Virus record (IMG/VR): IMGVR_UViG_3300009537_000102
Coordinates: 1-31,683 of that record
Source of the DNA: a virus
Direction: 5' to 3' (one strand)
DNA length: 31,683 bases
Made by a program: the position numbers and the translations under genes. The notes below the pieces were generated by a model. It did not search any database, had not been told where the DNA came from, and saw only the letters and a program-made list of their open reading frames with translations. Position 1 is the stretch's first letter. Each line of letters starts with the position of its first letter. Positions 1-21,522 of this stretch are shown in pieces.

Positions 1-1
1 G

Positions 2-241
2 TCAATCGACGCAGGCTACTATCCGTCTGGTGCAACCCACTACTCACGAGTAATCGGGATTTATGACAGAGAATGGGACAGAACCGTGGAATGGTTGTGT
101 CCTGACTGTGGCGGAAGATGGCCTTGTCGGGAGGAGGACACCCATGTTCATAAATGGACCGACGCTCGCAACGAGATAGTTGTGTCAGGTGAAGTCTGTT
201 TGGAGTGTGGAGCTATTCGGGCTTCAGAGGAGGACACATGA
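2..241 (+). CDS. Cys-pair (zinc-ribbon-like) protein, 5' partial
   Basis: An open frame runs from base 2 to TGA at 239-241 (79 codons visible); the start lies off the left edge. It carries two Cys pairs, CPDCGG near residue 34 and CLECGA near residue 67, spaced as in a small zinc ribbon, so a nucleic-acid or protein-binding role is possible. The E-E-D-T motif occurs twice, once internally and once as the last four residues, each time because the reading frame crosses the GAGGACAC repeat. The stop overlaps the next start as ATGA. No function recognised. Confidence 0.6.
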   Translation, partial: SIDAGYYPSGATHYSRVIGIYDREWDRTVEWLCPDCGGRWPCREEDTHVHKWTDARNEIVVSGEVCLECGAIRASEEDT

Positions 242-387
242 GCGAAAACCCACGAGATGTCGTAGACGAACAGGCCGAAGATGAAGGGTTGTGGTTTATC
301 GCCATGACAGCCCCTGAAGCGTATTTGCAACAGGAATTACGTCGGCTGCACGCTGCGGTCGAATCGTCTCAAGAGGACACCGAATGA
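238..387 (+). CDS. Small acidic hypothetical protein (49 aa)
   Basis: The start is ATG 238, not the in-frame ATG at 205, because GAGGAGGACAC ends directly before 238 and the ATG overlaps the upstream stop (ATGA). The protein begins MSENPRDVVDEQAEDEG, is acidic at the N-terminus with a helical C-terminal half, and ends in Q-E-D-T-E. That tail is encoded by the next copy of the RBS repeat. It overlaps the following gene by 4 nt. No family recognised; probably an accessory early microprotein. Confidence 0.6.
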   Translation: MSENPRDVVDEQAEDEGLWFIAMTAPEAYLQQELRRLHAAVESSQEDTE

Positions 388-527
388 GCCTAGAAAACTT
401 GGCAACTGCCAACTCTAATGGGCAGGCTGCGGTGAGTAAGGAGGACACCGACACTTACACGATGGTTTGCGGTGTGAACTGTGGACACGTTGGATGCATG
501 GCTGAGGAGGACACCGATGGAGACTGA
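384..527 (+). CDS. Small Cys-containing hypothetical protein (47 aa)
   Basis: ATG 384 follows AGAGGACACCGA and overlaps the previous stop by 4 nt. The protein begins MSLENLATANSNGQ and holds three Cys in a short stretch (VCGVNCGHVGC), a possible metal site. It is crossed by two copies of the RBS repeat: one in the middle (K-E-D-T, with no ATG close behind) and one at the end (E-E-D-T-D-G-D) that serves the next gene. The internal copy could be a scar of two fused microgenes. Function unknown. Confidence 0.5.
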   Translation: MSLENLATANSNGQAAVSKEDTDTYTMVCGVNCGHVGCMAEEDTDGD

Positions 528-660
528 GGCAGTTTGTGACGTGGGCCGCTTGATTGAGGTCGGTATCGAGCATTGGGTTGTTGTCTGTGTCCAAGCCCCC
601 GACCATGACGGCCCCCATGTGGGGATGATTAGCTGGGCTTCTGAGGGGGACACCGAATGA
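517..660 (+). CDS. Small hypothetical protein (47 aa)
   Basis: ATG 517 lies directly after GAGGAGGACACCG, the best-placed SD in this cluster, and starts inside the last 11 nt of the upstream gene. The product begins METEAVCDVGRLIEVGIEHW, has a beta-type pattern in the middle (HWVVVCVQAP) and ends in E-G-D-T-E from a slightly diverged repeat copy (GGGGACACC). The stop overlaps the next start as ATGA. No homologous family recognised. Confidence 0.55.
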   Translation: METEAVCDVGRLIEVGIEHWVVVCVQAPDHDGPHVGMISWASEGDTE

Positions 661-815
661 TGGTGCCCTATGTGAGATACGTTTTCTGGCGCACCATCCA
701 GAACCTTGTGGGCTACGTCGAGTGGGTGTTCGCAGAAGCCGAGCTATGGCTTGAAGAACAGACCCTTCAGGCTGGCAAGTATGTGTCAGACGAGTTTCAG
801 GAGCGTGTGTGGTGA
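657..815 (+). CDS. Small hypothetical protein (52 aa)
   Basis: ATG 657 (second ATG at 660) follows GGGGGACACCGA. The 52-residue product is rich in aromatic residues and probably helical (YVRYVFWRTIQNLVGYVEWV, then an acidic amphipathic segment). Its N-terminal half could lie on a membrane surface, but a full transmembrane segment is not clear. It ends in ERVW rather than the E-D-T tail of its neighbours. Function unknown. Confidence 0.5.
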   Translation: MMVPYVRYVFWRTIQNLVGYVEWVFAEAELWLEEQTLQAGKYVSDEFQERVW

Positions 816-831
816 GTACGGAGGACGAGAA

Positions 832-912
832 ATGAGCCTCATATTAGTAGCATGGATTTTGACTGTTCTGATTATCCTATTTTTAATTGAATGGTGGAAA
901 GATAAACACTGA
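832..912 (+). CDS. Single-pass membrane microprotein (26 aa)
   Basis: ATG 832 is preceded by CGGAGGACGAGAA, a variant of the cluster's RBS repeat. The 26-residue product is almost entirely one hydrophobic helix (ILVAWILTVLIILFLIEWW) followed by a short charged tail (KDKH). It is the last gene of the microgene cluster and is followed by the AT-rich gap. Small membrane peptides like this are common in phages, but no specific role can be assigned. Confidence 0.5.
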   Translation: MSLILVAWILTVLIILFLIEWWKDKH

Positions 913-957
913 TTTTTAGTAAAAAATTTTTATCGACCTTTTTTTTATTAGGAAAAT
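913..957 (+). other. AT-rich intergenic stretch
   Basis: This stretch holds long A and T runs, including the palindrome TAAAAAATTTTTA and a run of T before ATTAGG. It separates the microgene cluster from the promoter of the next block. It has no GC-rich hairpin, so it is not a classic intrinsic terminator. It could be an easily melted DNA segment or an UP-like element for the downstream promoter. Confidence 0.35.
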
Positions 958-1005
958 CAAGCATAGCAACAGGGGCGCGGTCTGCAAGCATAGAGACAGG
1001 CGCGC
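958..1005 (+). repeat. Diverged direct repeat upstream of promoter
   Basis: CAAGCATAG followed by an ACAGG..CGCG segment appears twice, at 958-979 and 985-1005, with a 27-nt period and small differences. The second copy ends 5 nt before the -35 box at 1011. The placement suits an activator or operator site, or an iteron pair. Which it is cannot be decided from sequence. Confidence 0.45.
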
Positions 1006-1010
1006 ACGAT

Positions 1011-1046
1011 TTGACAGCACCAAAGGGGTGTGTTATAGTATGACCA
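1011..1046 (+). promoter_or_regulatory. Sigma-70 type promoter, probably leaderless
   Basis: A consensus -35 TTGACA (1011-1016), a 17-nt spacer and a -10 TATAGT (1034-1039) are present. The expected start site, 6-8 nt after the -10, falls on or next to ATG 1046, and no SD precedes that ATG. The transcript is therefore predicted to be leaderless or nearly so. It should drive the helicase/nuclease block by host RNA polymerase. Confidence 0.75.
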
Positions 1047-1663
1047 TGAGTATCATTGATCAGCAAATGGAATTGTATTTCGCTAACGATTTTGGGAGAG
1101 TGTCCGACGCGGTGGACAAGTGGATTGGCCGCACAATTATTATGATGCAACGATGGGGTAAGGGTAGCACTTGGGTGTCGCTTGAGGGTGGCCGCGATAA
1201 CGTGCGGCTGAGCGCACTTGGATATGTCATCGAAGCGGATGATCTTGACGTGGGCTTAAAAGCCTACGGCAAGTATATTAACCGCGAGTATGGGAATCGG
1301 GACAGGCTCATAAGCCTGGATGATGAGCGTGGTCGTGATGACGACAGACCTCTAGGTGTTACGCTAGAAGCCGTCAGCCCTTTTGGGGCTTCGCCTTCTG
1401 GCGGCCTACAGGCTTTAAGTCATTTGAATCAAGAACATTTTTTAAAAGATGAGGAAGAATATGAACTTTTTTCTTTGCTGGGTGACCTTGGCCCGAACGG
1501 GCGCAACAAAGGTCCGTCCCATACCGAAGCAGCAGACCTGCTCGGCTGGGACATGAAAAGGGTGAAGCGTGTGTACGCTAGGGTTCATGCCCGTCGCCGT
1601 TATTCTGAGGATACGGACGTGCAGTCTAGGCGCAAAGCTAACGCTGCACGGTATCGTGCTTGA
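1046..1663 (+). CDS. HTH-containing putative regulator (205 aa)
   Basis: This is the first gene after the consensus promoter. ATG 1046 was chosen because it matches the predicted transcription start; in-frame ATG 1040 and GTG 1028 lie next to or inside the promoter. The N-terminal two thirds show no recognisable domain. Near residues 158-190 the segment HTEAADLLGWDMKRVKRVYA reads as a helix-turn-helix, with a following basic tail (HARRR, then QSRRKANAARYRA). Position and HTH suggest a DNA-binding regulator, possibly acting on the repeat upstream of its own promoter. That link is inference. Confidence 0.6.
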   Translation: MSIIDQQMELYFANDFGRVSDAVDKWIGRTIIMMQRWGKGSTWVSLEGGRDNVRLSALGYVIEADDLDVGLKAYGKYINREYGNRDRLISLDDERGRDDDRPLGVTLEAVSPFGASPSGGLQALSHLNQEHFLKDEEEYELFSLLGDLGPNGRNKGPSHTEAADLLGWDMKRVKRVYARVHARRRYSEDTDVQSRRKANAARYRA

Positions 1664-1682
1664 TTCGGACAACACTACTATC

Positions 1683-2570
1683 ATGAGCGTTTGGCGACAA
1701 CTGCCGTTGGGTGACCCACCAACGCTTGATAGAGAAAATGATGTTATTGTGAGACAATCAACCATCAATGCTCTGCAACTATGTGGTCAGCGAGTGGCTT
1801 TGAGAGATCACCCAGGATACCTTAAGGCAGTATCAGAGCCACTTGCTTTCGGTACACTCGTACACCATCTCATCGCCGAAGACCTCATAACAGGCGAAAG
1901 ACAGATGGGCCTACTCTCCAACATGGGTGAGTGGGTTGACCCCATACTCCAAGAACAATACGAGTGGAGTTTAAGCCAAGTACCCAACGTAGGCGATTTC
2001 TTCGGGGAAATAGCTGTCGCCTACAGGTCGTGGGTGACACGAGTGCTACCCATCATCACTAAACTGGGAGAACCAGTATCTATCGAAGAGGAAATGGTAT
2101 TATATCTTGGGGAGGGAGAAAAAGGTAAAAAAATTTTTCTGCAAGGAACTGCTGACGCAGTATACCCCTCCACTCTCGTTGATTGGAAAACGTCAGGACG
2201 GAAGTGGAAGGACAGTAAGGCACAGTTCAGTCCGCAAGCCACACTCTACCCACCTCTCGTTAAACAGCAGACGGGGTTAGACATTCGCAAGTTTACTTTT
2301 TGGGTTTTCGATAGGAGCGCCAGCCAGTGGACGAAGCACGTCACTGACCGTCGCATCAAAGACATTGACGCAGGCTTACGCATCGCCTACACTTATGGTT
2401 TACAGCTAGAGGCAGGCCACCTACCTGCGACACCATTGGACGAAAACTATTTTGATTACAAACGTGCCTGGTATTGTAGCCCCAAGTTCTGCGGAGCGTG
2501 GAACGTGTGCGACTACAAATATTTGGCCGATCACATAAGCGAAAATCAAATCGCTGAAAGGAAATGGTAA
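1683..2570 (+). CDS. PD-(D/E)XK nuclease, RecB/Cas4-like
   Basis: A 295-residue RecB-family exonuclease-like protein. Family motifs in order: GTLVHH (His 60/61), GTAD (Asp157), VDWKTS (Asp166, Lys168) and QATLY (Gln184, Tyr188). One Cys near the N-terminus (C34) and three near the C-terminus (C265, C270, C276, spaced x4 and x5) match the iron-sulfur cluster layout of Cas4/AddB-type nucleases. The likely job is end processing of DNA in phage recombination or replication, next to the helicase. No CRISPR genes are nearby, so a Cas4 role in adaptation is not implied. The start is uncertain: ATG 1683 has no clear SD, and GTG 1656 is an alternative. Confidence 0.8.
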   Translation: MSVWRQLPLGDPPTLDRENDVIVRQSTINALQLCGQRVALRDHPGYLKAVSEPLAFGTLVHHLIAEDLITGERQMGLLSNMGEWVDPILQEQYEWSLSQVPNVGDFFGEIAVAYRSWVTRVLPIITKLGEPVSIEEEMVLYLGEGEKGKKIFLQGTADAVYPSTLVDWKTSGRKWKDSKAQFSPQATLYPPLVKQQTGLDIRKFTFWVFDRSASQWTKHVTDRRIKDIDAGLRIAYTYGLQLEAGHLPATPLDENYFDYKRAWYCSPKFCGAWNVCDYKYLADHISENQIAERKW

Positions 2571-2571
2571 A

Positions 2572-2994
2572 GTGAGTAGAAATAAAAGTATACTCTTGCA
2601 AGTAGCATTCAAAGAGGCAGCCGCGAACGACGCTGCAACAACTGTTGCAGACGTTGAGGCGTTGACCTTGAAATATTATGAGACACTCATCTCCCTACAC
2701 AACTCTCTAGGCATCAGCCTAGAGGACACCAGCCGTGGAGGTCGTGACGTCCGAGGCGGTGCCCCTTCTCGTGGCCCCACTGGTGCCAGCCTAGAAGGTC
2801 AACCGTTTGAGTTGGATGGTGTGCAGTGGCGTGACTTTCGTGCCGCTAAAATAGAGGGCAGAGTCAACCCCAAGCACCCCGACTTCAAGAATAGTGGTGG
2901 CGAAAGTGTCTGGATGTACGACAAGACGGGTAGCGACAACCCGACAGCGATACCGCTAGTGGCAGCCGCTGACCTTGTTGCTGCAATGGCATAA
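2572..2994 (+). CDS. Hypothetical early protein (140 aa)
   Basis: GTG 2572 follows GAAAGGAAATGGTAAA and sits one base after the nuclease stop. The N-terminal 50 residues look helical; a Gly/Arg-rich linker (SRGGRDVRGGAPSRG) follows; the C-terminal part has Trp/Phe-rich strands (VQWRDFRAAKIEGRV, GESVWMYDKTG). The flexible linker and its place between nuclease and helicase would suit a ssDNA-binding or accessory replication protein, but no family was recognised. The GAGGACACC repeat also occurs inside the gene, encoding E-D-T. The stop overlaps the next start as TAATG. Confidence 0.6.
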   Translation: MSRNKSILLQVAFKEAAANDAATTVADVEALTLKYYETLISLHNSLGISLEDTSRGGRDVRGGAPSRGPTGASLEGQPFELDGVQWRDFRAAKIEGRVNPKHPDFKNSGGESVWMYDKTGSDNPTAIPLVAAADLVAAMA

Positions 2995-3302
2995 TGTTCA
3001 CCTTCAAAGACAAGGCGAACGCTATGCGAGTCGAGTTCGATGGGCGTCATCCGAAAGCTCGGATGACGCTCATGGCCTACTTCGCAGAAGCAGGTGTCGT
3101 GCCCGACCCCGACAATATGACCTCATATTTAGACATGATGCACCAACTCAACGATTACGTGTACGAGGGCGCTGACGAGTTCTTCACAGAAATCAGTCAG
3201 CTAGACGAGGATGAGGACGAAGGGGAACAACTATCACTTGACAGTGTACAACCCAAAGTGGACACCAACTTCGACGATGGTTTAGGAGGGGCGTACCTAT
3301 AA
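2994..3302 (+). CDS. Hypothetical protein with acidic C-terminus (102 aa)
   Basis: ATG 2994 overlaps the upstream TAA as TAATG. The first 65 residues look folded (MFTFKDKANAMRVEF, then helices); the last 35 are strongly acidic (QLDEDEDEGEQLSLD). Such tails are seen in SSB-like and replication accessory proteins that recruit partners, but homology cannot be claimed. The last codons contain AGGAGG, which would be the SD of the helicase; the TAA stop overlaps an ATA in the helicase frame. Confidence 0.6.
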   Translation: MFTFKDKANAMRVEFDGRHPKARMTLMAYFAEAGVVPDPDNMTSYLDMMHQLNDYVYEGADEFFTEISQLDEDEDEGEQLSLDSVQPKVDTNFDDGLGGAYL

Positions 3303-4207
3303 GCACCGACCTATACTATGATGTCAAACATTTATTTCAGTTCGCCGAGAACCCCACCAAAAGAGTGGGGACAGGCATGCGAGAAATAGATAGACTCATT
3401 AGAGGGCCAGCGCCAGGAGAAATCTGTATGATAATGGGACGAAGCTACTCAGGTAAGAGCATCATCGGCCAGAACATCATCTACTCCAACGCTGAACTAC
3501 CCTCCATCTTCTTCTCAATGGAGATGCCAGCCATGCAGGCAGTCATCAGACTCTACTCCATGTGGTCAGACACCCCCAGCGGTGACGTACAAATGATGGT
3601 AGAGAACGGCAACCCACCTGCAGACATGTGGGAGATGGTCGAAGCGTTCCCCCAACACGTCATAGTAGACAAGCCAGGACTCTCCATACCTGAGATGAGC
3701 GAAGAACTTTACAAGTTTGAAGGACAGTATGGTGTGCGCCCCGAGTTCGTAGTCGTAGACTACCTTGAACTCTTGGGCGGGGCCAAGGCTAGTGGCGAAG
3801 GCTACCTTGCAACAGAAATGCAGTCCACCATGCTTAAAGACTGGGCCAAAATAGAAAACATGCGTGTGTTCGTACTCCACCAAACTAACAGGCAGGAACG
3901 ACAGTGGATGCCACCCACTGAGGACAGCGCCAGGAACGCAGGCTTCACCGAAGCCGACTTTGTGATAGGATTGTGGCGACCGCACAAAGACCCAAGCCTA
4001 GACTTCCTAGAACAAATGCACAAAAAAAATATTTTTGCAGCAAACGTGCTGAAAAACCGTCCCTTCTTTCACGAAAAAGATTTAATTAACCTACGCATCA
4101 CACCATCATTAAGAGTTTGGAGAGAAGATGACACGCACAGTGACCAGGGAGGGACTGAACCAACTGTTCAAAGCAGCCCAACAGGACATACCCCTGACCC
4201 TTACTAA
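3299..4207 (+). CDS. DnaB-like replicative helicase, RecA-fold domain
   Basis: An ATP-dependent 5'-3' helicase core of the DnaB C-terminal type; the usual N-terminal DnaB domain is missing. Numbering from GTG 3365: Walker A GRSYSGKS (25-32), Walker B FVVVDYLELL (Asp132), sensor segment VLHQTNRQ (His172), and the conserved RVGTGMREIDRL entry motif. Because that motif and about 20 plausible residues (YYDVKHLFQFAENPTKR) lie at or before GTG 3365, translation must begin upstream. No ATG, GTG or TTG exists in frame there. AGGAGG at 3284-3289 is followed after 9 nt by ATA 3299, which overlaps the upstream TAA as ATAA. ATA 3299 is the proposed start. If wrong, the gene is 3365-4207. Confidence 0.8.
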   Translation: MSTDLYYDVKHLFQFAENPTKRVGTGMREIDRLIRGPAPGEICMIMGRSYSGKSIIGQNIIYSNAELPSIFFSMEMPAMQAVIRLYSMWSDTPSGDVQMMVENGNPPADMWEMVEAFPQHVIVDKPGLSIPEMSEELYKFEGQYGVRPEFVVVDYLELLGGAKASGEGYLATEMQSTMLKDWAKIENMRVFVLHQTNRQERQWMPPTEDSARNAGFTEADFVIGLWRPHKDPSLDFLEQMHKKNIFAANVLKNRPFFHEKDLINLRITPSLRVWREDDTHSDQGGTEPTVQSSPTGHTPDPY

Positions 4208-4412
4208 TGAACTAGTACACGACATGGCAGAAATCATTATAAGATTTGACGCTCTACTCAGCGCCTACTTCAACGAGTACGGCACTGACCTAGCACAAGA
4301 ACTAACAGGAGTGACAGAAACGGAGGCCGAACTTGTCGCAGCCGAGGCGGAGACACATGGATGGAGTGATGAAAGCAGCGGGCTGGACGCACCGTCAGAA
4401 GAGGAAGAGTAA
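4128..4412 (+). CDS. Hypothetical acidic protein (94 aa)
   Basis: ATG 4128 has a purine-rich SD (GGAGAGAAG) and overlaps the helicase end by 80 nt in another frame. The product starts MTRTVTREGLNQLFKAAQQD, has helical segments with a short hydrophobic patch (AEIIIRFDALLSAYF), and ends in a very acidic tail (APSEEEE). No later in-frame start with a better SD was seen. No family recognised; probably a small replication-block accessory. Confidence 0.55.
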   Translation: MTRTVTREGLNQLFKAAQQDIPLTLTNELVHDMAEIIIRFDALLSAYFNEYGTDLAQELTGVTETEAELVAAEAETHGWSDESSGLDAPSEEEE

Positions 4413-4518
4413 AGACCCTTACTTGAAGATCAAAACACGTACCAGTGACGGTGCCACGTTTGTGGATGAGGATCAGAAGTATAGGTGGATTAATTACGAA
4501 GACGTAATAGAACTGTGA
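4357..4518 (+). CDS. Small basic hypothetical protein (53 aa)
   Basis: ATG 4357 was chosen over the in-frame ATG 4333 because GGCGGAGACAC, a variant of the early RBS repeat, ends directly before it. The product begins MDGVMKAAGWTHRQKRKSKD: a basic N-terminus, then short strands ending KYRWINYEDVIEL. It overlaps the previous gene by 56 nt and the next by 4 nt (GTGA). Function unknown. Confidence 0.55.
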   Translation: MDGVMKAAGWTHRQKRKSKDPYLKIKTRTSDGATFVDEDQKYRWINYEDVIEL

Positions 4519-4730
4519 CCTTCTCAGCTACTATGACTATACAGATAACACTAGCCAAAGGTATCAGCGCAACCTTACAGCATGCGCGGACAGTATTAGG
4601 AGAATTAGAGGGAGACTGGTTTTATGAGCAAGGACTCTTAAAGGATGTACAAGCCAACGTTGACGACTACATTGCGAAACTGAAACATGAATCATTCCAA
4701 ACACAACGAAGAAACGATAGTAACGAGTGA
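4515..4730 (+). CDS. Small helical hypothetical protein (71 aa)
   Basis: GTG 4515 overlaps the upstream stop as GTGA; ATG 4533 (MTIQITLAKG) is the alternative start. The product looks mainly helical (ARTVLGELEGDWFYEQGLL, then VQANVDDYIAKLKHES). It overlaps the DUF5664 gene by 44 nt. No family was recognised. Confidence 0.5.
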   Translation: MTFSATMTIQITLAKGISATLQHARTVLGELEGDWFYEQGLLKDVQANVDDYIAKLKHESFQTQRRNDSNE

Positions 4731-5106
4731 CACTGGTGGACAGAAAGGCAGCAAACCCATACAACTACACGCTATCCCTTGGGAAGCGCTCCAAGAGGTG
4801 GGTCGCGTCTATCATTACGGGACCATCAAGTACGACGACTACAATTTCCGTAAAGGATACAAGTGGTCGCTCACGTTTGATGCGATGCAACGACATTTAT
4901 GGGCGTTCTGGTCGGGTGAAGACCGCGATGCTGAAAGTGGGTTCTACCATCTTGCTCATGCCGTATGGCATGGCTTTACACTCTTATTCTATTCCATTAC
5001 ACGAAAGGGAACCGATGACCGTCCTATTAGACTTAGAGAAAACGTTCACACGGAGCAACGGAACGACATTCTCGAAGATATACGAAAGGCTTACGAAAGC
5101 CAGTAG
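4687..5106 (+). CDS. DUF5664 dATP/dGTP diphosphohydrolase-like protein
   Basis: A 139-residue protein matching the phage DUF5664 family. Characteristic stretches: GGQKGSKPIQLHAIPWEALQ, VYHYGTIKYDDYNFRKGY, RHLWAFWSGEDRDAESGF and HLAHAVWHGFTLLFY. Family members are annotated as dATP/dGTP diphosphohydrolases with an all-helical MazG-type fold; the acidic GEDRDAESG segment and following His residues would be the metal site. The likely role is tuning the purine deoxynucleotide pool during infection, consistent with a second nucleotide-type enzyme (DUF4406) at 6501. ATG 4687 starts inside the previous gene. Confidence 0.75.
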   Translation: MNHSKHNEETIVTSDTGGQKGSKPIQLHAIPWEALQEVGRVYHYGTIKYDDYNFRKGYKWSLTFDAMQRHLWAFWSGEDRDAESGFYHLAHAVWHGFTLLFYSITRKGTDDRPIRLRENVHTEQRNDILEDIRKAYESQ

Positions 5107-5227
5107 ACGTGCCGAGCCACCCATGTTGGGGGCTATTTATGGTCACGACGACGTGCAAATTTTTTACCGCAAGGGTGTATACGACGCACTGGCTGCAGTG
5201 CGTGAGGAAATAGCTAAGACAGTATGA
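5015..5227 (+). CDS. Small hypothetical protein (70 aa)
   Basis: ATG 5015 has a good SD (AAAGGGA with 4 nt spacing) and starts 92 nt before the DUF5664 stop in a different frame; the open frame continues upstream but has no comparable start signal. The product begins MTVLLDLEKTFTRSNGTTFS and ends AALAAVREEIAKTV-like, mixed alpha/beta in appearance. Its stop overlaps the next ATG as ATGA, which supports it as a real gene. No function recognised. Confidence 0.5.
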   Translation: MTVLLDLEKTFTRSNGTTFSKIYERLTKASRRAEPPMLGAIYGHDDVQIFYRKGVYDALAAVREEIAKTV

Positions 5228-5739
5228 GCAAACCATACCGTGACCTACCATTCTCACAACGGTTCGCCACAATGGGCGACCAAGCAGAAAACGTATACCT
5301 TGCGGTTCAACCATTAGGGAACACGACACGCTACGGGTTCAGGCGACCCGAAGGCATCAAATTCTCACACCTACCAGAACGATACCGTCACATGCCAGAC
5401 TTCATCACCCCCACCTATCTGGTGGAGGTCGTGGGGCTAGGACGTGACGGTATACTCAAATCCATTAAAACCACCAAATATGAAGCACTGAAATGGTGGA
5501 ACAAGACAGCTAAAGAGGGAGGACTATTAGGACTCGTAGTATTTATATGGAATAGTGCAGCCAAAGAGTTTATTACCTTAGAGTGGTCAAATATTGTAGC
5601 CGAAGTCAAGTATTCTAAACGCAAGTACGGAGTCCAAGCATTTGAAAGCGACGGCAACACGTATTATCGTCTCGACTGGGACCGTCTACGGGGTAAGGCT
5701 GCCGTTGTAGGGGTATATGATGAACCGCAAGACACTTAA
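5224..5739 (+). CDS. Putative PD-(D/E)XK-type nuclease (171 aa)
   Basis: ATG 5224 overlaps the upstream stop as ATGA. An N-terminal segment (FATMGDQAENVYLAV) is followed by HMPDFITPTYLVEVVGLGRD. The layout resembles PD-(D/E)XK nucleases, with Asp59 and Glu68 as candidate metal ligands. The canonical Lys two residues after the Glu is Val here, so a downstream Lys (near 79) would have to substitute or the assignment is wrong. A later LGLVVFIWNS strand fits a restriction-endonuclease-like core. Likely a resolvase or DNA-processing nuclease; moderate confidence only. Confidence 0.5.
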   Translation: MSKPYRDLPFSQRFATMGDQAENVYLAVQPLGNTTRYGFRRPEGIKFSHLPERYRHMPDFITPTYLVEVVGLGRDGILKSIKTTKYEALKWWNKTAKEGGLLGLVVFIWNSAAKEFITLEWSNIVAEVKYSKRKYGVQAFESDGNTYYRLDWDRLRGKAAVVGVYDEPQDT

Positions 5740-5884
5740 CAGGTTTCTGGTCGTCCTAGACGCCATAGAATCGCTTAGAATCGATTTGCTAATCGATGAA
5801 GGGTTCCCTGACGTGGACGAAGCCATGCTACAGGTCGCAGAAGACCTCATGTGGGTGTATCGTGAACTAGTAGAACATGAGTAG
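5717..5884 (+). CDS. Small helical acidic protein (55 aa)
   Basis: Two adjacent ATGs (5717, 5720) lie inside the end of the previous gene. The product begins MMNRKTLNRFLVVLDAIESL and is predicted to be helical and acidic. It ends by overlapping the next start by 8 nt (ATGAGTAG), which keeps the tight packing of the block. No family recognised. Confidence 0.5.
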   Translation: MMNRKTLNRFLVVLDAIESLRIDLLIDEGFPDVDEAMLQVAEDLMWVYRELVEHE

Positions 5885-6200
5885 ACCAAGGTGGGAGATA
5901 CTCGTAGGGTCAGCAGCCAAACTAGATTACCTCATGCAAGACCCTCACACTGATGAGCCACCCCACCCGCTGCAAGAGGTAGTCGAAGACGTGATAGCCT
6001 CTTGTACAGAGAGGGAACGTGAAGTGTTCCTTCTCCGCTACGGAGATGAATACTCTATCCGTCAGATCGCAGAAGTGCTAGGCTATAACAGCCACCAAGT
6101 CGTACAAGTCATACTCGACAACATTAAAGAGAAAGTTAGGAGGGCAATAGAAGATGGAAGAACCACTACTCATGGCGATGCTGACAGTGTTAGCGAATGA
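5877..6200 (+). CDS. Sigma-70 region 4-like HTH protein (107 aa)
   Basis: Residues about 42-92 read as sigma-70 family region 4: TEREREVFLLRYGDEYSIRQ then IAEVLGYNSHQVVQVI, with the typical T-x-R-E-R-E-V-x-x-L-R entry and HTH. There is no region 2, so it cannot open a promoter alone. It may act as an anti-sigma/sigma-appropriation factor or a DNA-binding regulator. It could be involved in the switch from the plus-strand to the minus-strand block; that is inference. ATG 5877 lies 8 nt inside the previous gene. Confidence 0.65.
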   Translation: MSRPRWEILVGSAAKLDYLMQDPHTDEPPHPLQEVVEDVIASCTEREREVFLLRYGDEYSIRQIAEVLGYNSHQVVQVILDNIKEKVRRAIEDGRTTTHGDADSVSE

Positions 6201-6390
6201 CCAAGCCTACCTTCACGCCGAAGTGCAGGCGATCATTTTTGAACGTAAGATGGGACACGCACCCACTGAGGAAGAGTTTCACTCGTGGATGGACGAATGG
6301 AAACATGAGTCCAGTAAGCTTGTTGCTATGGCTATGAATGCTAACCTGTTGGAAGATATTGACATTGACGAGGACACCGATGATGCGTGA
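6154..6390 (+). CDS. Hypothetical acidic protein (78 aa)
   Basis: ATG 6154 overlaps the sigma-like gene by 47 nt; AGGAGG lies about 10 nt upstream, and later in-frame ATGs at 6172 and 6178 are alternatives. The product looks helical (HAEVQAIIFERKMGHAPTEE, FHSWMDEWKHESS) and ends in an acidic tail that includes D-E-D-T-D-D, again because the frame crosses the GAGGACACC repeat serving the next start. Function unknown. Confidence 0.5.
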   Translation: MEEPLLMAMLTVLANDQAYLHAEVQAIIFERKMGHAPTEEEFHSWMDEWKHESSKLVAMAMNANLLEDIDIDEDTDDA

Positions 6391-6433
6391 ATACACGGAA
6401 AACGTGAACAACGCACGAATGGGCAACCAATGA
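6380..6433 (+). CDS. Possible 17-aa microprotein
   Basis: ATG 6380 sits right after GAGGACACCG, the same arrangement as at the left end of the window. The frame encodes MMREYTENVNNARMGNQ and stops at 6431-6433, overlapping the next ATG as ATGA. It may be a true microprotein or a leader that couples translation to the next gene. Confidence 0.35.
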   Translation: MMREYTENVNNARMGNQ

Positions 6434-6504
6434 TATGGTGGATAGTGTTCGTGATGTGGCTGGTCCTAGCAGCGTTCGCCCTCTGGCACATTGGCAGAAA
6501 ATGA
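6430..6504 (+). CDS. Single-pass membrane microprotein (24 aa)
   Basis: ATG 6430 overlaps the upstream stop as ATGA. The 24 residues form one hydrophobic helix (MIWWIVFVMWLVLAAFALW) with a short basic end (HIGRK). Its stop overlaps the DUF4406 start, again as ATGA. It resembles in size and form the membrane microprotein at 832, but shared ancestry cannot be shown. Confidence 0.5.
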   Translation: MIWWIVFVMWLVLAAFALWHIGRK

Positions 6505-6911
6505 TGAGTAAAATTTTTACGCCCTTCTACCAACCATTCACAGGCACACGCCGCGTATACATTAGCGGCCCCATGAGCGGACACAAAAACAACAACTTCG
6601 ACGCCTTCGATGACGCAGCCAAAACGTTACGACGTAGAGGGTTCAGCGTATGTTCACCCTCAGACACAGACAGGTGGCTAGGCGAACTGTCTCACGCAGA
6701 GTACCTGCGGTTCGACTTCGCCAGAGTCCTTGAAGCCGACCTGCTCATCGCCCTAGAAGGGTGGGAGCAGAGCGTCGGCGCACTAGCAGAAATATTTGTT
6801 GCCCTACGCATAGGCACAGAAGTGTACGAGTGGAAAGGTGAACGGCTACGCTGGCAGATACACTTGTCAGAAGTAGAAGAAGCAATAGGGGCGCTCAATG
6901 CCAAAGAATAA
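6501..6911 (+). CDS. DUF4406 / nucleoside deoxyribosyltransferase-like protein
   Basis: The start is taken at ATG 6501 (or 6504), which overlaps the upstream stop; the in-frame ATG 6435 would run through the microprotein gene. The family signature RRVYISGPMSG (17-27), Asn/Phe in NNNFDAFDDAAKTLRRRGF and CSPSD follow the DUF4406 pattern, related to nucleoside 2-deoxyribosyltransferases. Later acidic positions (DFARVLEADLLIALEGWEQS, GALAEI) fit the family's active-site half. A role in nucleotide or base metabolism is likely; the substrate is unknown. 136 residues, a usual family length. Confidence 0.75.
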   Translation: MMSKIFTPFYQPFTGTRRVYISGPMSGHKNNNFDAFDDAAKTLRRRGFSVCSPSDTDRWLGELSHAEYLRFDFARVLEADLLIALEGWEQSVGALAEIFVALRIGTEVYEWKGERLRWQIHLSEVEEAIGALNAKE

Positions 6912-7209
6912 AAGAGACTTCCGCAACCAATACGAAAGAGTAGACAAAGGCACACTACTCACAGGCAACGTGTGGTATCGTAGCCCCCTATGGGAGTACG
7001 ACCACCTTGTAGGAGAGGACCACACATGGTATGATGATCAGATCGCATGGTGTGGTCGTGGGTTGGGTGCAGCTCGTGACGGTTGGGGTGATAAACTATT
7101 GGAAGGGTTGTGGGTGTCTACTCGTAGGGGTAACAAGTGTGCTACTTGTAAGCGTAGACAGGCGGAGTGGAACGCTGCCATGGCGTCGTCCCCCCCGTGG
7201 AGACAGTAG
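6898..7209 (+). CDS. Hypothetical protein with C-terminal Cys pair (103 aa)
   Basis: ATG 6898 lies 14 nt inside the DUF4406 gene. The product is basic at the N-terminus (MPKNKRDFRNQYERVDKGTL), rich in Trp/Gly in the middle (EDHTWYDDQIAWCGRGLG), and has CATCKRR near residue 79. One Cys pair plus C63-type single Cys could form a metal site. No function recognised. Confidence 0.5.
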   Translation: MPKNKRDFRNQYERVDKGTLLTGNVWYRSPLWEYDHLVGEDHTWYDDQIAWCGRGLGAARDGWGDKLLEGLWVSTRRGNKCATCKRRQAEWNAAMASSPPWRQ

Positions 7210-7211
7210 CT

Positions 7212-7466
7212 ATGTGGATAGCTATACTTCTGTTTACGTTGAGTGTGGGTGGTGCCTTCTGGCTAGGGTATTGGTTCGCGGGTCGTCGGGTGCCTGCCGT
7301 TATAATGGTAGACCCTCGTGCAACCCCACCGTCAGACGACCCGCAACCTAGACCTACAGAAGACCATCCCGTGCATCAACACGTTAAGTATTCAGAACCA
7401 CTCTATCGTCGCGGTCCCAATCATGAACTAAGACAAGCATGGCAGGATGCTATTGATGGCTCTTAG
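7212..7466 (+). CDS. Membrane-anchored hypothetical protein (84 aa)
   Basis: ATG 7212 was chosen because the in-frame ATG 7167 lies deep in the previous gene, while a purine stretch (GGAGACAG) precedes 7212. Residues 1-22 (MWIAILLFTLSVGGAFWLGY) form an N-terminal membrane helix, followed by Arg residues and a Pro-rich soluble tail. A phage inner-membrane protein of unknown role. Confidence 0.55.
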   Translation: MWIAILLFTLSVGGAFWLGYWFAGRRVPAVIMVDPRATPPSDDPQPRPTEDHPVHQHVKYSEPLYRRGPNHELRQAWQDAIDGS

Positions 7467-7578
7467 TAACAAACCAAAGCAAAGCCTTGGTTCATGGTGG
7501 TGCCCTGAGTGCGACCACTTGCTAACCATAGGACACAGTTGGTACTGTGAGAACTGTGGCGCTCATGGCACTTTCTAA
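7456..7578 (+). CDS. Zinc-ribbon microprotein (40 aa)
   Basis: ATG 7456 starts inside the previous gene and the frame ends at TAA 7576-7578. The 40 residues contain CPEC (16-19) and CENC (32-35) with 12 residues between, an almost minimal zinc ribbon (WWCPECDHLL, SWYCENCGAHG). Overlap with genes on both sides follows the pattern of the block. Could bind nucleic acid or a host protein; no specific role known. Confidence 0.55.
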   Translation: MALSNKPKQSLGSWWCPECDHLLTIGHSWYCENCGAHGTF

Positions 7579-7918
7579 ACGTGAAAGGAAACGACGTGCA
7601 AGAAGAAGCTCCCACAATTACCATCTACGACAGAACTATGGGATTACAATTGATGAGTATGATAGCATCCTTGCTTCCCAGTCTGGGCGATGCGCAATAT
7701 GTAAAGGTGGGACTTCCAAGAGACACTTCGCAGTTGACCATAACCATAAAACTGGGCAAGTTCGCGGGCTACTCTGCGCACGATGCAATACTGGACTGGC
7801 TAGGTTTATGGACTCCCGACGTAACGTGGGACGAGCATACAAGTACCTTGGATATGACGGAGCCAGGGTCAATGAGACGCTTGGAAGAGAAGTAAAAGTA
7901 CCAGAGTCAAATGAATAA
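7565..7918 (+). CDS. Recombination endonuclease VII (HNH)
   Basis: A 117-residue protein of the T4 endonuclease VII family, which resolves branched DNA and helps packaging. Conserved layout: YGITIDEYDSIL (25-36), zinc Cys pairs C43-x2-C46 and C71-x2-C74, and catalytic DHNH (58-61) followed by TGQVRGLLCARCN. A basic N-terminus (SKRERKRRARR) probably contacts DNA. ATG 7565 was chosen over GTG 7547; it overlaps the zinc-ribbon gene by 14 nt. Last gene of the plus-strand block. Confidence 0.85.
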   Translation: MALSKRERKRRARRSSHNYHLRQNYGITIDEYDSILASQSGRCAICKGGTSKRHFAVDHNHKTGQVRGLLCARCNTGLARFMDSRRNVGRAYKYLGYDGARVNETLGREVKVPESNE

Positions 7919-7943
7919 GTAGGGAGGTGAGGCCAGACTTACA

Positions 7944-7970
7944 GAAAGCCCCCCTTAGCGGGGGGCTTTC
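7944..7970. terminator. Hairpin terminator between convergent blocks
   Basis: An 11-bp perfect stem GAAAGCCCCCC (7944-7954) / GGGGGGCTTTC (7960-7970) with loop TTAGC, followed on the plus strand by CTTATTGT. It lies between the end of the plus-strand genes (7918) and the last minus-strand stop (7999), so it can stop transcription from both sides. The T-tract is modest on either strand. Confidence 0.85.
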
Positions 7971-7998
7971 CTTATTGTACAGTCTTATCGACTGTCAC

Positions 7999-8796
7999 TT
8001 AGGCTCCAAGCCAGTCATTCTGCGCTCCAACCAACGCATCACTTCTGTGATAACGCAAGTGGAAAGCATCAATGTCTAGTGTCTCGGCAGCAGCACCCAC
8101 GTTCTCAACAGAGAGAACAGGGCGCATACCAACAAGCGGCATGGCCGCAGGTGCAAGATGCACAGTCTCCTGAGCATCCTCACTCGTCACACGGAAATAC
8201 ACGTCCACATCAGTGGCATAGATTTCCAACAGAACCCAGTCGCCCTCTACATAACCAATCGTGAAAGCCTCTTCCACGTCAGTACCAGCAGAGTTAACCT
8301 GAGCAATGAATTGACCAGACGTATCAGCATCTTCCCAAACGATTGCCACTACATCAGCAGCAGACGAGTTAGGTGCAGCAGGAGCCTGACCTACCAGGCC
8401 AACCTCCACGTTGGCAGCATCAACATCGTTGATACGAACCACCGCAGCCATATACACGCCGTTATCGTCAAGTAGGATTGGTCCGTCAGCTTCAGCAGCA
8501 TTTTGGCCGCCAAGCATAAGACTCACAACATCACCAGTATCGCCAGCATTAGAAAGCTGAAGGATACCAGGATGGTCAGCCACTCCTGAGAGCGCCAACG
8601 CTGTAGCAGGGCCAGTTGTCACAACAGTCTCATCAGCATTCCAAGTCAACTCAGAATGGATTACTGTATCAGCAGCCACATCGGCTGCCTCACCTACACT
8701 AATGAAGTCGTCGTGCAACCAGACGTTAGCTACGTTATCGATACCGTCAAACGGGAGCGTCGAAAAAGACGATCCCACACGTTTTACTTTAGGCAT
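7999..8796 (-). CDS. Hypothetical virion-associated beta-rich protein (265 aa)
   Basis: A 265-residue acidic protein rich in Ala, Val and Asp with alternating strands (GVYMAAVVRINDVDAANVEV, DWVLLEIYATDVDVYFRV), reminiscent of jelly-roll or LamG-like surface domains. It could decorate the capsid or bind host glycans; no family is certain. ATG 8796 has a strong SD (GGAGG at 8806-8810). It has its own promoter-like element (8859-8882) and a leader of about 60 nt that begins with a hairpin, suggesting high late expression. It is the last gene of the minus-strand block. Confidence 0.7.
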   Translation of the reverse strand: MPKVKRVGSSFSTLPFDGIDNVANVWLHDDFISVGEAADVAADTVIHSELTWNADETVVTTGPATALALSGVADHPGILQLSNAGDTGDVVSLMLGGQNAAEADGPILLDDNGVYMAAVVRINDVDAANVEVGLVGQAPAAPNSSAADVVAIVWEDADTSGQFIAQVNSAGTDVEEAFTIGYVEGDWVLLEIYATDVDVYFRVTSEDAQETVHLAPAAMPLVGMRPVLSVENVGAAAETLDIDAFHLRYHRSDALVGAQNDWLGA

Positions 8797-21125: not shown

Positions 21126-21522
21126 GCTCTACCATCCCATAGATGAAGTCAGGCTGCCACAACTCACAGTTCCTACCACGGTAAGGTGGCCCCCACACCC
21201 AAGCCAACACAGGCCACGCCTCCTTCACAGCAGAGAACAGGCGAGGACACGTATGCCCAGGACGAGTCTCCGCATTATAAGCTGTCACAAAACCAACATG
21301 CTCAGGCAGTTCACGCGAATAGTAGAAGTCGTCCTGCATGATGATCACAGTATCATCCCAGCCCTGATCCACACCATGCTCAGCAAGCAGATGCCAGTCA
21401 CGACGCAAACTCTGCTCATGGTTGACCCCACCCGTCGCCACATATAGCGACCACGGGTAAGCGAACTCCATGTGAGCGTTCACTCTATCAGGGTAGGCAG
21501 ACACAACCACTATTCTCCTCAC
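21112..21522 (-). CDS. Putative glycosyltransferase-like protein (136 aa)
   Basis: GTG 21522 overlaps the nozzle stop as GTGA, the junction type common here; ATG 21585 would overlap the nozzle gene by 67 nt, and GTG 21510 after GAGGAG is a further option. The sequence begins with a strand (RRIVVVSAYPDRV) and has DDTVIIMQDDFYYSRELP near residue 75, similar to the strand-D-D metal site of GT-A glycosyltransferases. Other conserved-looking parts are TAYNAETRPGHTCPR and WGPPYRGRN. It is small for a glycosyltransferase, so it may be a reduced domain. It could modify the fibre or a virion protein. Confidence 0.4.
   Translation of the reverse strand: MRRIVVVSAYPDRVNAHMEFAYPWSLYVATGGVNHEQSLRRDWHLLAEHGVDQGWDDTVIIMQDDFYYSRELPEHVGFVTAYNAETRPGHTCPRLFSAVKEAWPVLAWVWGPPYRGRNCELWQPDFIYGMVEHVVA

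Follow-up and report, generated by a model that had tools for sequence, protein, structure and literature searches.

A repeated gene-junction sequence in a run of overlapping early phage microgenes, and its possible part in microgene exchange

The DNA analysed here is IMG/VR record IMGVR_UViG_3300009537_000102, and the whole of that record, 31,683 bases, is what we call the window. The record is classed as linear, so the window is probably a fragment; moreover, no terminase is seen in its 31,683 bases, and part of the genome, at least, is therefore probably missing. Early genes occupy the plus strand at 1–7918, and the structural genes lie on the minus strand. The portal of the window phage is P22/SU10-like, the capsid protein is distant kin of podoviral and other phage capsids, and the DnaB-like helicase matches mainly phages of Mycobacterium, Acinetobacter and Streptomyces at less than 60% identity. 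No DNA relative of the first 20 kb was found in the annotated phage collection, and searches with the helicase, scaffold-like, portal and capsid proteins returned no or merely distant relatives. A small sigma-70 region 4-like protein is encoded amid the early genes (5877–6200), and a strong terminator-like hairpin (7944–7970) stands between the converging early and structural blocks.

The left end of the window carries a run of very small genes, at whose junctions a short repeat recurs. The genes, junctions and outlying copies are as follows.

2..241, plus strand: gene A, open at the record's left end, at least 79 aa, with two Cys knuckles (CPDC..., CLEC...), ending ...ASEEDT-stop
131..144, plus strand: copy 1, GAGGAGGACACCCA, within the zinc-ribbon-like gene A, encoding EEDTH; the ATG at 143 opens 11 codons, and the copy is excluded as a gene start
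227..240, plus strand: junction A/B, GAGGAGGACACATG; A ends EEDT-stop, B starts at 238, 4-nt overlap
238..387, plus strand: microgene B, 49 aa, ending ...SSQEDTE-stop
371..386, plus strand: junction B/C, AAGAGGACACCGAATG, 4-nt overlap
384..527, plus strand: microgene C, 47 aa, ending ...AEEDTDGD-stop, with an internal copy at 441
428..451, plus strand: internal copy, TGCGGTGAGTAAGGAGGACACCGA, in microgene C, with no start codon at ribosome-binding-site (RBS) distance
504..519, plus strand: junction C/D, GAGGAGGACACCGATG, 11-nt overlap
517..660, plus strand: microgene D, 47 aa, ending ...ASEGDTE-stop
643..659, plus strand: junction D/E, GAGGGGGACACCGAATG, a one-mismatch copy, 4-nt overlap
657..815, plus strand: microgene E, 52 aa, ending ...QERVW-stop, without an E-D-T tail
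808..839, plus strand: junction E/F, TGTGGTGAGTACGGAGGACGAGAAATGAGCCT; only GGAGGAC in common, no ACACC, genes non-overlapping
832..912, plus strand: microgene F, 26 aa, hydrophobic
2722..2730, plus strand: internal copy inside ORF 2572–2994, encoding LEDTS, with no gene start
6370..6382, plus strand: junction, GAGGACACCGATG; upstream ORF 6154–6390 ending ...DEDTDDA-stop, downstream ORF 6380–6433 of 17 aa, 11-nt overlap

Family searches gave weak zinc-ribbon hits, below the cut-offs, for gene A and no family hit for microgenes B, C, D and E. Downstream of the run, at 1011–1048, is a near-perfect promoter (TTGACA-17-TATAGT, with TG before the −10). The ATG at 1046 falls at about the transcription start expected from it, so that the next gene's transcript may lack a leader. 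A scan of 1–8000 found no promoter-like site on the plus strand before 1011.

The core of the repeat, GAGGACACC, occurs in exact form six times in the entire window (134, 373, 441, 507, 2722 and 6370), and two further copies, at 230 and 646, deviate by one mismatch; all eight are on the plus strand. A longer 11-nt word, GAGGACACCGA, is confined to 373, 441, 507 and 6370. Five copies (230, 373, 507, 646 and 6370) are followed 8–11 nt later by the ATG of an ORF that overlaps the upstream gene; at the same time they encode the E-D-T or G-D-T end of the upstream protein. The overlaps measure 4 nt (238/241, 384/387 and 657/660) or 11 nt (517/527 and 6380/6390), and the five protein ends, each followed by the stop codon, read EEDT, QEDTE, EEDTDGD, EGDTE and DEDTDDA. 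This bears out the initial annotation of the locus, which had seen the repeat as the last residues (E-D-T or E-D-T-E) of several small overlapping proteins. Its tally of seven copies or variants within 700 bp, with further ones at 4349 and 6370 and an internal one at 2722, fares less evenly: the repeat is real and the copy at 6370 is linked to a start, but the copies at 134 and 441, like that at 2722, are internal to ORFs and have no associated gene start. The site at about 820 reads GAGGACGAG, where GGAGGAC is kept and ACACC is absent, and that at 4349 is a weak match (GGAGACACATG). In total, the motif stands at five starts, with one partial instance.

The internal copy in microgene C has an unusual flank. 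Bases 428–446 are identical to 808–826, at junction E/F, at 17 of 19 positions, and 0.009 such pairs are expected by chance. The shared 19 bases end in copy 441 and include a TGA that serves gene E as its stop codon but at 441 falls outside the reading frame. Going by its sequence, 428–451 is probably what remains of a former gene boundary, now enclosed in a fused ORF, and the fossil-looking pair hints at microgene exchange in the window phage. Between most copies the similarity of the flanks ends past about 14 nt, and descent by duplication therefore rests chiefly on this one pair. We also observe that ORF C as a whole (384–527) looks like two microgenes fused across a former junction at about 433–451, where the out-of-frame TGA and a Shine–Dalgarno (SD) sequence lie.

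There are several ways in which such a pattern could have arisen. Chance clustering in a coding region rich in Glu and Asp is the least credible of them: allowing one mismatch, the word is only modestly over-represented in the window (15 matches, against 7.8 in shuffles), but the exact and start-proximal counts are far above codon-shuffle, synonymous and dinucleotide nulls. The start-proximal form was observed seven times, whereas dinucleotide shuffles give 0.16 and at most 2. The seven include a site at 21243, antisense in a tail gene, which when ignored leaves six, and the copy at 134, which opens 11 codons. Over the window as a whole the word is thus in excess near starts; the later plus-strand genes mostly lack the motif. 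Selection on the acidic C-terminal peptide itself, for example as a targeting or stability tag of the microproteins, is very improbable. Every in-gene copy in the window does read in the E-D-T frame, as this idea would have it; yet six of the eight E-D-T tripeptides in plus-strand genes are spelled exactly GAG GAC ACC, an identity of codons that selection on a peptide would not lead one to expect. Permutation of synonymous codons gives a mean of 0.56 such tripeptides, none of 2000 permutations reaches six, and a whole-codon shuffle gives 0.07. It is therefore the bases that are conserved, not the peptide, and the earlier claim of conservation past the SD core is borne out by the ACACC(GA) common to the copies. 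In addition, gene E has no such tail, gene D has G-D-T, and in other contigs the word encodes QRTP, RGHQ or nothing. Selection on the protein tail is accordingly disfavoured.

The main rival is a favoured ribosome-binding sequence and nothing more, in which each gene, on its own, would have come under selection for a strong SD followed by an A/C-rich spacer free of structure, with no duplication or exchange; we regard this as a possible but distinctly less probable account. The flanks that diverge past about 14 nt speak for it, as does the moderate enrichment of the word before ATG in bacteria of two phyla relative to a permuted spacer: GAGGACACC stands before ATG in 80 of 100 Actinomycetota genomes, where the permuted spacer reaches 45 of 100, and in 79 of 100 Pseudomonadota genomes. 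Ordinary RBS preference may therefore cover part of the recurrence of the word. The enrichment in the host genomes is real, but it is weak as a sole cause. Against this account, the phage's own structural genes start from AGGAGG with other spacers, which are A/T-rich, junction E/F retains the SD while losing the spacer, the identity of ACACCGA in several copies goes beyond what pairing needs, and the internal copies serve no start, one of them (441) having its flank in common with another junction. RBS preference covers the core and its position; it does not cover the fossil junction or the contrast with the other genes of the phage. A trans-acting factor, either a phage protein or a small RNA, that reads the repeat and controls translation of the microgenes is an improbable further alternative. 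Such a factor has been proposed, unproven, for the start-associated sequences (SAS) of cluster K mycobacteriophages, and the conservation of bases past the SD is the same argument as was made there (PMC3203893); a phage protein has been speculated for SAS (PMC11373665). Against it stand the existence of internal copies and the folding of the junctions, where we found no unusual RNA structure (z-scores of −0.6 to 1.1).

We favour, with some confidence, a reading in which GAGGACACCGA serves again and again as the junction between coupled microgenes, the E-D-T(E) tails are its by-product and the copies came most likely from local duplication or recombination. The element consists of an SD core (GGAGG/GAGGA) and a fixed A/C-rich spacer, which together set the next ATG 8–11 nt from the start of the motif. 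It lies inside the final codons of the gene before it, and these early genes, of 47–52 residues, would form a translationally coupled run, such that a ribosome ending one microgene may re-initiate on the next; an RBS so embedded in the upstream frame would leave the E-D-T(E) tails. Rather than have separate origins, the copies would descend from one another, by local duplication or by recombination where genes meet, and these events may leave fossil copies within fused ORFs. The three internal copies without a gene start count against this reading.

The initial annotation had likened the repeat to SAS, as an analogous system with an unrelated sequence. The likeness in position at the RBS and in conservation beyond the SD stands, and there are start-associated arrays of the word elsewhere; the kind is already known, since phages of Microbacterium cluster EF carry an SAS of different sequence, GGGAAAGGACCCC, with ten intergenic copies upstream of starts and a linked ESAS (PMC7302621), and an SAS of unrelated sequence is therefore not new in kind. 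The SAS of cluster K mycobacteriophages is GGGATAGGAGCCC, in 11–19 copies (PMC3203893). Like it, the window motif is short and asymmetric and recurs before starts at the RBS position. Both have an SD core, together with conserved bases that take no part in pairing with rRNA; both belong mostly to non-structural genes, and in both the stop codon of the upstream gene can fall within the repeat. The window motif differs in sequence from both GGGATAGGAGCCC and GGGAAAGGACCCC, it has five start-associated copies and several internal ones, and so falls short of near-total start association. Nor was an ESAS-like or promoter-like upstream element seen in the window, and the junctions lie within overlapping genes, unlike the intergenic sites of cluster EF. 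The copies are grouped at 227–659, plus 6370, in a fragment of 31.7 kb, rather than dispersed in about ten or more copies over the non-structural genes. The later plus-strand genes mostly show no clear SD. As they are also mostly free of the motif, and the minus-strand structural genes use AGGAGG, the motif in this fragment is local, apart from the copy at 6370, and not a genome-wide system. The motif thus works like an SAS, small and local. The function of SAS is itself still unknown (PMC11373665).

A second parallel is with the boundaries of lambdoid phage modules, where it has been suggested that modules are exchanged at short conserved boundary sequences (Clark et al. 2001; Susskind and Botstein 1978, cited in PMC3029335); in Island3, the neighbouring small genes gp67 and gp68 have 18 C-terminal residues in common (PMC3029335). 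As in those cases, the window repeat is short and spans the end of one gene, with its C-terminal codons, and the start of the next, an arrangement proposed there to mediate the gain or loss of a small gene. The window differs in that several junctions in one genome share the repeat, and in that the shared part contains the SD.

We also searched for the word in other genomes. IMG/VR scans yielded at least about 120 matches each, and among the matches listed most were due to chance; the remainder were contigs with clear start-associated arrays. Contigs with a two-copy pattern were mainly cases of coding repeats or chance. Among the 120 contigs listed per scan, GAGGACACC gave four clear start-associated arrays and the permuted spacer no clear array, although the numbers are too small for a firm conclusion. 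In the permuted-spacer control, 2 of 120 listed loci passed a count of three; one of them is explained by a tandem repeat in coding sequence, and its fellow has three scattered sites on both strands. A 42-bp coding tandem repeat in one contig (L531, 2371–2505) mimics a start-associated array, which is a warning for automated motif counts. In IMGVR_UViG_3300036804_000165 (L368, here G009), 23 copies of CAGAGGACAC, preceded by T or A, are associated with starts; they fall almost entirely on a single strand within the first 15 kb. The terminase of G009 shares 59% identity with those of Rhizobium phages, and in its nearest annotated relative, Rhizobium phage RHph_N28_2, the word is absent as a repeated start element. 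Another contig (G012) has 8–9 start-associated copies of the core, and a third (G007) has five or six copies of GAGAGGACACCATG. The copies in G009 and G012 are mostly intergenic, in varied frames and with no bias to the E-D-T frame, which indicates that the tail is not the conserved thing. The same counting method recovers the known SAS in TM4 (nine copies) and finds no strong word in phiC31; by this count, the G009 array is larger than the SAS of TM4. Since the contigs were retrieved by this very word, their sharing of it is no evidence of common descent. Contigs that align with the window MCP, at 41–44% identity, are fragments and do not carry the word, and two relatives of the dGTP-diphosphohydrolase (L005 and L006) were found through that single protein. 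In the collections searched there was no relative of the window phage close enough to show gain or loss at the motif sites.

Exchange at junctions can be followed in phages and phage-plasmids of Streptomyces. Two of these (G010 and G011) have in common junctions of 27–35 bases of the form (GACCGCG)CCACCGAGAAG TGA GGACACCGANC ATG, made up in order of the codons of an ATEK tail, the stop, an SD, a spacer and the start. The microgenes that flank the junction in G010 and G011 are often unrelated, and one stretch of 302 bases with 90% identity covers one gene and stops at the junction. The Y protein of G010, which is 87,893 bases in length, matches plasmid NZ_CP058980. A survey of 393 Streptomyces genomes turned up the junction in 8 of them. 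Over 15 junctions and 19 gene families, the three families present in several genomes (3/3) change neighbours every time. The gene that follows the Y family differs among G010, G011, G311, G128, S. chartreusis, S. leeuwenhoekii pSLE1, S. anulatus, NBC_01435 and ZL12. Annotated plasmids show a constant gap of 11 bases from stop to start at these junctions. Seven Streptomyces phage-plasmids (L374, L375, L480, L478, L485, L607 and L612) contain microgene arrays with 11-nt joints, TGA GGACACCGACC ATG, and shared ATEK tails ending in a stop. In its fuller form the joint between microgenes reads GAGAAG TGA GGACACCGACC ATG, and the neighbours differ in every relative examined. Neighbours also differ at joints without the repeat (ZL12 and NBC_01435), and the repeat therefore accompanies switching rather than demonstrably causing it.

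The window junctions resemble the Streptomyces joints (ZL12/pSLE1 type) in having an upstream tail, an SD with a CACCGA spacer, a start and the same 11-nt word, GAGGACACCGA. The Streptomyces joints are longer (27–35 bp), have the ATEK tail and the upstream stop inside the SD region, and separate non-overlapping genes by the constant 11-nt gap, with neighbours switched. They too were retrieved through this word, and the likeness therefore does not imply a shared origin. Microgene swapping at joints, which the initial annotation had suggested for the window, is supported by analogy, through the neighbour switch at the TGAGGACACCGACCATG junction of the Streptomyces phage-plasmids, and by extension we infer that microgenes may have been exchanged at the junction in the window phage. 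We found no description of the window motif or of the Streptomyces joints in the literature covered, which lay mostly outside subscription journals.

Finally, we suggest as a tentative and rather doubtful generalization that phages of different groups have independently fixed one word that combines upstream C-terminal codons, an RBS and a downstream start, as a standard joint at which microgenes could be inserted, lost or swapped without loss of expression. On this view the window is a single case, and the arrays of the Streptomyces phage-plasmids are a second, one where the switching can be seen. Phages carry numerous small genes to which no function is assigned, and it is still to be understood why these come and go so freely; a standard joint with its own RBS would, if real, explain how new microgenes can be expressed at once. 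Such a joint would also let accessory genes be found by their junction rather than by homology, much as regulatory sequences have served to find archaeal anti-defence genes (PMC11065993). The arrays of the Streptomyces phage-plasmids make the idea of a joint directly testable.
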